A stretch of 37,349 nucleotides of DNA from an uncultured Pseudomonadota bacterium (lineage in GTDB: Bacteria; Desulfobacterota; Syntrophorhabdia; Syntrophorhabdales; Syntrophorhabdaceae): positions 1-37,349 of the forward strand of contig CALMFJ010000085.1 in NCBI GenBank assembly GCA_937862865.1, given 5' to 3'. Position 1 is the stretch's first letter; each line of letters opens with the position of its first letter. This document shows, piece by piece, positions 3,409-33,170 of the stretch. Under the pieces are notes generated by a model. That model saw only the letters and a program-made list of their open reading frames with translations. It searched no databases and had not been told where the DNA came from. The translations under genes and the position numbers were made by a program.

Positions 3409-4041
3409 TTACGGATTCATCCGTAAGACCATCACCACTTTCCCCTGGATGCGGACATTCGCTGCGTCGTGGAACACGGGCAGCATGTAGGGATTGCACG
3501 GCTGAAGCCGTATCTTTTGGCCCTTTTCGTAATAGATCTTTTTGAGGGTCACTTCCTGCTCGCTCTCGAGCCAGCACGCGGCGACCTCGCCGTTGTTCAC
3601 GGAATCGGCCTCTTCCATCACCACAATGTCAGAATCGGCTATCATGGCGTCCACCATGGAATTTCCCCTGACCCTGAGCGCAAAGAGGCGCCTTCCTTTC
3701 CGCATTATATCGCGCGGGACATCGATCATCTCCTGGCCGGCGGCGCTTTGCCTGTCCATGGAAGGCACGCCTATCGGCTGGCCGGCTGCGATCACCCCAA
3801 GGAGCGGCACACAGGCAGGCCCTTCCTCATCCCCCACGAGGCCGATGCTGCGCGATCGGACCCTGTCCCTCGTGATCAGCCCGGCCTCCTCAAGCTGTTC
3901 CAGGTGATACTGCACCACGGACGGGCTTTTTATTCCGCAATGGCCCGCAACCTCACGCACGGACGGTGAATAACCATTGTCACGCCTGAACACCCTGATA
4001 AATTCAAGTATGTTTTCCCGGGTATCTGTTTTTCTGACCAT
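3409..4041 (-). CDS. lexA: LexA SOS repressor/autopeptidase
   Basis: 210 residues. The N-terminal winged helix (about 1-65) includes GYSPSVREVA and a recognition helix near SPSVVQYHL. The linker ends at the Ala86-Gly87 autocleavage bond in VIAAGQP. The catalytic dyad is Ser128 (GNSMV) and Lys167 (VTLKK), with the usual spacing for the family. LexA represses SOS genes and cleaves itself when activated RecA filaments form. No Shine-Dalgarno sequence precedes the ATG; instead a near-palindromic LexA box abuts the start codon, which suggests autoregulation and a leaderless or very short-leader transcript. It is transcribed away from the imuB-dnaE2 genes. Confidence 0.95.
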   Translation of the reverse strand: MVRKTDTRENILEFIRVFRRDNGYSPSVREVAGHCGIKSPSVVQYHLEQLEEAGLITRDRVRSRSIGLVGDEEGPACVPLLGVIAAGQPIGVPSMDRQSAAGQEMIDVPRDIMRKGRRLFALRVRGNSMVDAMIADSDIVVMEEADSVNNGEVAACWLESEQEVTLKKIYYEKGQKIRLQPCNPYMLPVFHDAANVRIQGKVVMVLRMNP

Positions 4042-4056
4042 AGAACAAGTGTACTA
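4041..4056 (-). promoter_or_regulatory. Probable LexA box at lexA
   Basis: TAGAACAAGTGTACTA directly abuts the lexA start codon. Its halves TAGAACA and, on the other strand, TAGTACA differ by one base, and the core GAAC-N4-GTAC is one mismatch from the GAAC-N4-GTTC box found upstream of imuB. Its position fits autorepression. Confidence 0.7.
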
Positions 4057-4095
4057 CAAACAGGGAAAAATTTGAAGCAAATTTTTCCCTGTTTG
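4057..4095. repeat. Perfect 18-bp inverted repeat upstream of lexA
   Basis: CAAACAGGGAAAAATTTG at 4057-4074 and its exact complement at 4078-4095 are separated by AAG. It begins immediately beyond the LexA box and covers the place where the lexA promoter should be. On the minus strand a possible weak promoter is TTGCTT-18-TAGTAC, with the -35 box at the loop and the -10 inside the LexA box. It could be an operator or a transcribed hairpin. Confidence 0.75.
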
Positions 4096-4096
4096 C

Positions 4097-4207
4097 GTTC
4101 TACGTTTTAGGTTCTACGTTAAAAAATACATTTTCGAAATTAAAGTGTTTTCCTAATAATAACAGAATTCTTCTGAAACGTAGAACGTAGAACGCGGAAT
4201 GCGGAAT
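4097..4207. repeat. Mirrored heptamer array 1
   Basis: The left array (4097-4124) is four units of 7 bp: GTTCTAC, GTTTTAG, GTTCTAC, GTTAAAA. The right array (4175-4207) is the complementary kind: GAAAC, GTAGAAC twice, GCGGAAT twice. An AT-rich 50-bp centre separates them. The array fills the divergent region between lexA and the imuB promoter. The same unit recurs at 16563-16640 and 29532-29698. Confidence 0.8.
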
Positions 4208-4219
4208 TAAAAAAAGTGC

Positions 4220-4248
4220 TTGCCAAATTAGAACATATGTTCTAATAT
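4220..4248 (+). promoter_or_regulatory. imuB sigma70-type promoter
   Basis: TTGCCA at 4220-4225, a 17-bp spacer, and TAATAT at 4243-4248. Transcription would begin about 7 bases downstream, at or one base before the imuB ATG (4256), which predicts a leaderless mRNA; no ribosome-binding site is present to contradict this. Confidence 0.6.
4228..4245. promoter_or_regulatory. LexA (SOS) box of imuB
   Basis: TTAGAACATATGTTCTAA is a perfect 18-bp palindrome with the GAAC-N4-GTTC core known from Bacillus-type LexA. It fills the promoter spacer and overlaps the -10 box, an ideal position for repression. Confidence 0.88.
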
Positions 4249-16557: not shown

Positions 16558-16562
16558 AAAAC

Positions 16563-16640
16563 GTTCTACGTTCCGGGTTCTACGTTAAGGATCAATCCCT
16601 GAATTATTAACGTGGAACCTGGAACGTTCAACGCAGAACG
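16563..16640. repeat. Mirrored heptamer array 2
   Basis: Left array 16563-16590: GTTCTAC, GTTCCGG, GTTCTAC, GTTAAGG. Right array about 16607-16640: GTGGAAC, CTGGAAC, GTTCAAC, GCAGAAC. The arms are imperfect complements around a 16-bp centre. It fills the 87-bp gap between the convergent flavoprotein and helicase genes, and no other terminator is seen there. Confidence 0.8.
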
Positions 16641-21584: not shown

Positions 21585-21722
21585 GTAAACGGTAAACAGT
21601 GAACGGTGAGCAGTAAAAGAACCCGTGAAGCAAGCCGGGCTTTTTCTCCTAGCCCCAGGCAAGCCGAACCGTGTGCAATGGCAGGCCCTTAGCGCTCTTC
21701 ACTCTTTACTGCTTACTACCCT
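21585..21722. repeat. Mirrored heptamer array 3
   Basis: Left array 21585-21619: GTAAACG, GTAAACA, GTGAACG, GTGAGCA, GTAAAAG. Right array 21695-21722: CTCTTCA, CTCTTTA, CTGCTTA, CTACCCT. The 75-bp centre includes AAGCCGGGCTTTTT, a possible weak terminator. It lies between convergent genes. Confidence 0.8.
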
Positions 21723-23284: not shown

Positions 23285-23312
23285 GTTTCCGGTTTCAAGC
23301 TTCAGGCAAAAA
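23285..23312. repeat. Single heptamer array 7
   Basis: GTTTCCG, GTTTCAA, GCTTCAG, GCAAAAA in tandem just after the dehydrogenase stop. No mirrored arm was found. The unit matches the array at 33136-33170. Confidence 0.65.
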
Positions 23313-23331
23313 TCTTCATAAAAAACGCGTC

Positions 23332-23349
23332 ATTCCGGCTTGCCGGAAT
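23332..23349. repeat. REP-like palindrome, copy 3
   Basis: ATTCCGGC-TT-GCCGGAAT, preceded by GTC and followed by CC. This is the canonical form of the palindromes at 1881-1900 and 1969-1991. Confidence 0.6.
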
Positions 23350-23405
23350 CCGGTGGCTTTTTCGCCTTGCACACGGCGCCTTAAGGTTTACCCGGCTTAA
23401 TTTTC

Positions 23406-25635: not shown

Positions 25636-25638
25636 GAG

Positions 25639-25721
25639 GCGATAGGCGATAGGCGATAGGCTATGGGCTATGGGAAAGATAAAAAAACCCATTGCCTATA
25701 GCCCATTGCCTATAGCCTCTT
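25639..25721. repeat. Mirrored heptamer array 4 (clearest copy)
   Basis: Left array 25639-25673: GCGATAG three times, GCTATGG twice. Right array 25688-25721: CCCATTG, CCTATAG, CCCATTG, CCTATAG, CCTCTT. The centre is 14 bases and A-rich. It fills the whole gap between the convergent glnN and acyl-CoA synthetase genes and could serve as a two-way terminator. Confidence 0.88.
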
Positions 25722-29531: not shown

Positions 29532-29698
29532 GTTCTACGTTCCGCGTTCTACGTTCCGCGTTAAGAACACCATAATGGGCCGGGATTTTTACTATCCCGG
29601 CTTTTCTTTTCGCTTAATTCCGAAAAGATGTTTCATTGTAATAATCTTCTGTCCCATTTCTTTCGGAAATGAAAAACGTAGAACGCGGAACGTAGAAC
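29532..29698. repeat. Mirrored heptamer array 5
   Basis: Left array 29532-29566: GTTCTAC, GTTCCGC, GTTCTAC, GTTCCGC, GTTAAGA. Right array about 29671-29698: GTAGAAC, GCGGAAC, GTAGAAC. The 100-bp centre contains the real terminator of the superoxide dismutase gene. Confidence 0.82.
29579..29610 (+). terminator. Intrinsic terminator of the superoxide dismutase gene
   Basis: GCCGGGAT at 29579-29586 pairs perfectly with ATCCCGGC at 29594-29601 around a 7-base loop, followed by TTTTCTTTT. Confidence 0.88.
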
Positions 29699-29710
29699 GT
29701 CCTTGAAGTC

Positions 29711-30298: not shown

Positions 30299-30334
30299 TA
30301 CATCATTGTTGTACCATAAACGGGGGGAAAACGG

Positions 30335-30430
30335 GGAACAGGTGATGGGCAACAGGCAATTTTCCCGGCATTTCCTATAAACCATAACCCATCACCTGTC
30401 TTTTTGTCCCCTTGCCCATTGCCCGTCTTT
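30335..30430. repeat. Mirrored heptamer array 6
   Basis: Left array 30335-30362: GGAACAG, GTGATGG, GCAACAG, GCAATTT. Right array 30382-30430: CCATAAC, CCATCAC, CTGTCTT, TTTGTCC, CCTTGCC, CATTGCC, CGTCTTT. It lies in the divergent region and its right end overlaps the promoter of the TPR-CHAT gene. Confidence 0.75.
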
Positions 30431-33135: not shown

Positions 33136-33170
33136 GTTTCAAGTTTCAGCTGTCACGTTTCAGGGAAAAG
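33136..33170. repeat. Single heptamer array 8
   Basis: GTTTCAA, GTTTCAG, CTGTCAC, GTTTCAG, GGAAAAG in tandem in the 61-bp gap between the convergent TPR-CHAT and lipocalin genes. There is no mirrored arm. Confidence 0.65.

Follow-up and report, generated by a model that had tools for sequence, protein, structure and literature searches.

Mirrored heptanucleotide arrays in the intergenic gaps of a Syntrophorhabdaceae genome keep their layout while their sequence turns over

Intergenic gaps in the genome of an uncultured Syntrophorhabdaceae bacterium carry pairs of tandem heptanucleotide arrays in mirror orientation. This layout is real and nonrandom, and it is kept while the sequence of the repeats turns over. 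The window, that is, the whole stretch of 37,349 nucleotides that was analyzed, corresponds to contig 85 of G000, a draft genome of 2.64 Mb, and the statistics for G000 were based on a 601-kb sample containing 293 intergenic gaps. Genes were called with a codon-usage model, and all gaps were scanned for self-similarity at each lag. Dinucleotide shuffles of the gap served as the null for both the period counts and the per-site scores (300 shuffles for the lag-7 score and 100 for the hairpin score). The gaps of congeners were compared with their orthologs in G000 with the help of syntenic stretches.

The period-7 signal first noticed in the window was confirmed as real and genome-wide. The G000 sample contained 89 strong lag-7 segments, compared with 0.2 in the shuffles, and periods 4 to 6 and 8 to 13 gave only 0 to 3 segments each, with periods 14 and 21 appearing as echoes of 7. 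Some contigs had been picked for matches to one site; in the subset of arbitrary contigs, the lag-7 peak was weaker (z of 3.0 at lag 7 and 4.8 at lag 21). At looser thresholds, 124 period-7 arrays were counted, and 73 of the 293 gaps (25%) had at least one. Genes were almost free of them, with 2 arrays in 526 kb of genes versus 78 in the 74 kb outside genes at a threshold of 12. In 50 of the 73 array gaps, the best inverted match was higher than in any of 20 shuffles, and it was better than the direct match in 58 gaps, the reverse being found in 10. The arms are therefore complementary beyond what shuffled sequence gives, as the original prediction had proposed. Both outcomes that were to count against that prediction, a period 7 as frequent as any other and arms paired at chance level, are excluded.

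That prediction had listed eight sites in the window. With a hairpin finder and shuffles, six of them stood as two-armed sites, five strong and one moderate. The first lies between the divergent lexA and imuB-like genes, with a left arm of the GTTCTAC family at 4095 to 4120 and its complement (AACGTAG/AACGCGG) at 4177 to 4207. The second has a GTTCTAC-family left arm at 16562 to 16586, 5 nt past the stop codon of an FAD-oxidoreductase gene, and a right arm at 16609 to 16633 that adjoins the stop codon of a minus-strand DEAD-box helicase gene. At the third, both arms are of the GTAAACG/AGTGAAC family (21585 to 21609 and 21698 to 21716), the right one lying before the stop codon of a minus-strand DMT-family gene. 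The fourth has a left arm of the GGCGATA/GGCTATG family that begins 1 to 2 nt past the stop codon of the glutamine synthetase III gene (25637 to 25674) and a right arm that ends 3 nt before the stop codon of a minus-strand acyl-CoA synthetase (ADP-forming)-like gene (25688 to 25718). The RNA of this gap (25636 to 25721) was predicted to fold at -47.5 kcal/mol (z of -7.3) and that of the reverse strand at -49.7 kcal/mol (z of -8.5). At the fifth, a GTTCTAC/GTTCCGC-family arm past the superoxide dismutase stop codon (29532 to 29562) faces its complement at 29667 to 29700, and the loop holds a canonical terminator-like hairpin on the plus strand (29577 to 29603). The lag-7 scores of these five sites were matched by 0 to 1 of 300 shuffles and their hairpin scores by 0 of 100. 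The sixth site, at about 30334 to 30424, was moderate (2 of 300 and 1 of 100, respectively), and its units, seen in the sequence and supported by gap-level shuffles, are degenerate: GGTGATG/GGCAACA in the left arm (30334 to 30360) and CCCATCACC and TTGCCC in the right arm (30377 to 30424). The two sites that had been listed as single arrays did not hold. The lag-7 score of the possible GTTTC... array at 23285 to 23307 was matched by 37 of 300 shuffles and that of the possible GTTTCAA array at 33136 to 33170 by 13 of 300, so that neither exceeded chance on its own, and neither formed a hairpin in comparison with gap shuffles.

Other elements were seen in and around these gaps. LexA-box-like sites, AGAACAAGTGTACTAC (4036 to 4055) and ATTAGAACATATGTTCTAAT (4222 to 4246), flank the mirrored array of the lexA/imuB-dnaE2 gap. 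A palindrome, GTCATTCCGGCTTGCCGGAATCC (23329 to 23351 of the window), and a dispersed core, TGTATTGGTTTCGATCATGCAGGACGGTCAG, are present in several gaps, including L009, L012, L013, and L016, and some of the copies lie within loops of GTTCTAC-family hairpins. A search of Rfam gave no match within the window.

The anatomy of the element was then described from all of the arrays in the sample. The repeat unit had been thought to be specific to each locus, which was only partly the case: two families, GTTCYRC (350 pattern matches across the G000 genome) and GGCNATR (303), account for most sites, and minor families (GTAAACG/AGTGAAC, GGCGAAC, CGTAAGG, GTGAAAC, and CGTAAAA) are also present. Most arrays are built as two inverted arms that share a unit family. 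We found 52 hairpins with inverted arms in G000, with spacers of 4 to 129 nt and many loops longer than 20 nt. An arm usually consists of 2 to 4 full units and a partial one. Array length peaks at 30 to 34 bp and seldom exceeds 36 bp, giving a sharp ceiling of about 31 to 36 bp per arm. The inner ends stop at a fixed phase, after GTT in 32 of 44 GTTCYRC arms and after GG in 51 of 64 GGCNATR arms. For the two main families, neighboring arms of the same family were in the plus-then-minus order 44 times and in the reverse order once. Reading inward, 84 of 90 arm pairs had more GT/GG than AC/CC, irrespective of unit, genus, or the orientation of the genes; the fixed polarity and G start noticed in the window thus extend across families and genera. 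Outside the arms, the left flank is A-rich and the right one T-rich (T frequency of 0.40 over 10 nt), and the flanks are alike in co-directional, convergent, and divergent gaps. The median RNA folding energy of 50 hairpins was -42 kcal/mol, with a median z of -7.2. We also considered whether each array is owned by a gene and oriented in its sense, with the mirror arising only where genes converge; this was rejected because the polarity is the same in divergent gaps. In one case (L068, 6839 to 7200), mirrored arrays are nested, with GTTCTAC arms outside and CGTAAAA/CGTTTTC arms inside one loop.

The position of the arrays relative to genes points to transcript ends. Arrays were found in 27 of 45 convergent gaps (60%), 37 of 186 co-directional gaps, and 9 of 62 divergent gaps. 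In the co-directional gaps, the median distance from the array to the stop codon was 5 nt, and that to the next start codon was 51 nt. A stable hairpin thus lies right past the stop codon, as in an intrinsic terminator. Our tentative reading, which we hold at a little less than an even call, is that the pairs act as sequence-flexible, two-way 3'-end hairpins of a terminator or insulator type, spreading within genomes and turning over there. A pair of mirrored heptamer arrays would fill the space behind the stop codon, either of a single gene or of two genes that converge. In RNA made from either side, the first arm would be richer in GU/GG and the second in AC/CC, and the two would pair into a long stem with an A-rich flank before it and a T-rich flank after it. 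Its job may be to end transcription in both directions, to insulate, or to protect the 3' end of the mRNA. What persists in this reading is the stem and not its spelling. New units could come from 7-nt slippage and reach further sites when similar arrays exchange sequence, and the two arms might stay family matched either because a stem requires matched arms or because one arm is renewed from the other by foldback copying.

A two-way terminator role is plausible. In the convergent gaps of G000, canonical terminators were near the shuffle level (5 of 33 versus 3 in the shuffles), and in array-free convergent gaps of congeners there were 13 of 34 versus 4. Downstream of the glutamine synthetase gene, G000 has an array where G001, G002, G003, G006, G007, and G011 carry a GC hairpin of the canonical kind and a T run. 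The heptamer hairpins may stand in partly for canonical GC-hairpin terminators. The A-rich left flanks resemble the AAAGG with which canonical terminators start in these genomes. Several results weigh on the other side and, together with a function that we infer, keep the reading tentative. Eight hairpins lie in divergent gaps, including that of lexA-imuB, where no transcript should end. Loops can exceed 120 nt, which is long for an intrinsic terminator. In the superoxide dismutase gap, a canonical terminator lies enclosed by the arms, which have not taken its place, and a hairpin similar to that at 29577 to 29603 is found at the corresponding place in the congener G009. Arms of one family in G000 also matched no more closely within sites than across them. 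RNA-level wobble bias was absent, with 19 G.U and 17 A.C mismatches on the sense strand in co-directional gaps. Without an excess of G.U, and with symmetric flanks, selection at the RNA level was not demonstrated.

The original prediction that the architecture, not the sequence, is kept was borne out by the congeners, whose orthologous gaps hold mirrored arrays with other units and even other periods. The unit families are species specific. GTTCYRC, so frequent in G000, has 28 matches in G004 and almost none in the other congeners, and GTTTCAR has 3 matches in G000 versus 99 in G002 and 88 in G010. Among 296 other genomes drawn from the phylum, a GTTCYRC triple unit was found in only 4. In the lexA-imuB gap, the unit is GTTCTAC in G000, GGTTCTG in G009, GTTTTAA in G006 and G010, and GTTTCAG in G003; in the DMT-family gap, it is GTAAACG in G000, CGTAAGT in G009, GTTTCAG in G010, and GTTCAAGA, with a period of 8, in G006. 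When left and right arms were permuted among species at three orthologous gaps, the same-species pairing was the best of 24, 120, and 6 permutations. Therefore, both arms changed together. Congener gaps retained an array more often where G000 has one (10 of 23 versus 12 of 72), with only 27 independent gaps in this comparison. The joint change of the arms, this retention, the species-specific units, and the limits on phase and length all count in favor of the reading as 3'-end hairpins. In G004, an orthologous gap is empty (10 versus 148 nt) and has no readable target site, few orthologous gaps having been compared. Relatives of the same family have period-7 arrays and some of period 8 and 9, and many genera had none in the sample. 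A second interpretation is that these arrays form a class of bacterial intergenic element whose hairpin layout (polarity, phase, arm length, and position by the stop codon) is inherited and selected, whereas the unit, and even the 7-base period, can be exchanged without constraint and simultaneously in the two arms, in a MutS-less lineage; we regard this as possible but doubtful.

Some further features of the congeners were noted. Arrays of period 8 and 9 (GTTCAAGA and GCTTGAACC; L202, L203, L212, L213, L210, and L211) occur besides those of period 7 and sometimes share the type of gap with them. Near position 17692 of L211 in G008, about 20 CCCATCACC-type heptamers follow one another, far over the length ceiling of G000. 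The dnaE2 gene of G009 (L198, 14978 to 18014) aligns as several separate segments; the gene may be disrupted, or its assembly may be poor.

Arrays of this kind could also be neutral, produced by replication slippage and foldback template switching and tolerated only in unconstrained gaps, so that both the mirror layout and the period would be purely mutational. The sharing of one period by many unrelated unit families is consistent with this explanation, as are the near absence of arrays from genes, their presence in divergent gaps, and the lack of RNA strand bias; moreover, heptamers have been tied by earlier authors to the contact length of the polymerase (quoted in PMC4692102 and PMC4679880). 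Mutational processes alone would fit poorly, however, with a ceiling of about 31 to 36 bp instead of a decaying tail, with ends at a fixed phase, with a polarity that is equal across unrelated families, and with the joint changes of arms between species. The same processes, slippage and template switching, had been named in the original prediction, and here the results were mixed. Within a family, two arms from one site in G000 were no more alike than arms from different sites (z of -1.5 for family A and +0.9 for family B), their composition did not match clearly inside a site (P values of 0.66 and 0.05), and neither outer nor inner flanks showed site-specific matching. Recent copying from arm to arm was therefore not demonstrated in G000, and we rejected it there. 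Eight GTTYCA sites of the congeners did match better inside the site (P = 0.0014), the pairs having been picked as best matches and some being orthologs.

Mismatch repair bears on this explanation. A search with one domain, MutS_I (PF01624), found it in none of 34 genomes of the order (G000 to G026 and G037 to G043) and in 6 of 9 other genomes of the phylum; a control search was positive in 11 of 14 known genomes. MutS mismatch repair may thus have been lost throughout the order, judging from this domain. Loss of MutS could relax control over exchange between imperfect repeats, and its absence is a possible permissive factor for the arrays. It is not sufficient, since many genera of the order that had no arrays in the sample also lack MutS_I. 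Taken together, we consider a neutral origin improbable.

A selfish, dispersed element with a REPIN-like way of working, REPINs being paired inverted REPs that a RAYT enzyme moves, would account for other properties. Its mobile arms would settle by stop codons, where they do the least damage, and would have no function for the host. The arrays are present in hundreds of species-specific copies, and the 52 hairpins are inverted extragenic doublets with variable spacers, a 44:1 polarity, a fixed phase, and a length ceiling. G000 encodes one PF01797 (RAYT-type) protein of 333 amino acids, with similar genes in most congeners, and REPs elsewhere likewise lie chiefly between convergent and co-directional genes (PMC3733652). 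However, the tag of REPs is missing at the outer ends of the arms: GTAG was found in 5 of 104 outer flanks (5.3 in shuffled sequence) and CGTC in 0 of 104. Membership in the REPINs is therefore not claimed, though a similar way of working is possible. The flanks and most loops differ between copies, and orthologous gaps change the unit while keeping position and mirror layout. We rejected transposition of a whole element together with its loop because loops are mostly unrelated, some GTTCTAC-family loops sharing the dispersed palindromes. An association of RAYT genes with the arrays was also rejected, as PF01797 and arrays are not correlated across genera. A REPIN-like element ranks first among the rival explanations but is rather unlikely.

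We finally considered paired sites, built in steps of 7 bp, to which a nucleoid or regulator DNA-binding protein would bind, an idea put forward for Geobacter metallireducens. There, 16 class 3 "global regulator" sites share one consensus, MTYCTGA, which is repeated five times in tandem and arranged in pairs (PMC2700814). The fixed polarity and step, the opposite orientation within pairs, and the variable distance of the arrays are like those sites, but at least six unit families in G000, a full change of units among congeners, and periods of 7, 8, and 9 are not what such a protein would predict. It is hard to see a single protein recognizing them all, and we consider this explanation very unlikely.

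Such arrays would show that a bacterial genome can hold a structural element by shape alone, its sequence being renewed genome-wide while the arms stay complementary. The arrays could serve as a test case for why, in many bacteria, long simple repeats are most often heptamers, which earlier papers did not answer, and for how transcripts end between convergent genes in MutS-less lineages.

In the open literature searched, no description of mirrored, multifamily heptamer arms that turn over was found, and the arrays share features with several known systems. Bidirectional intrinsic terminators have a stem after the stop codon with an A-rich sequence upstream and a T-rich one downstream. The arrays resemble them in all three respects; here, however, the stem is made of heptamers, the loops are often long, and divergent gaps are occupied too. 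Like REP, REPIN, and BIME elements (PMC3116915 and PMC3733652), the arrays are short, high-copy, species specific, extragenic, and mostly downstream of genes; they also form hairpin-capable inverted doublets in a genome with a PF01797-type gene. They differ in having tandem heptamer arms without the GTAG/CGTC tag, units that are replaced at orthologous positions, and several unrelated families per genome. The class 3 sites of G. metallireducens are also paired, oppositely oriented heptamer arrays at a variable distance (PMC2700814), whereas the arrays here have another consensus and mostly 2 to 4 full units, are genome-wide and multifamily, and turn over between species. In the Beggiatoaceae, TAACTGA direct repeats are likewise intergenic heptamers and occupy well over a hundred places, but they have a single unit, lie upstream of start codons, and are essentially not inverted (PMC4679880), in contrast to the mirrored, multifamily arrays here. 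Intergenic tandem heptamers are common to the arrays, the cyanobacterial STRR, and the GGGAATC/GGGGATT repeats of Xanthomonas and Nostoc, some of which form inverted pairs in Xanthomonas (PMC4692102). STRR have one or a few fixed units, whereas G000 has two main and several minor families and its congeners have others; in the arrays described here, inversion is the rule, arm length is bounded, and polarity is fixed.
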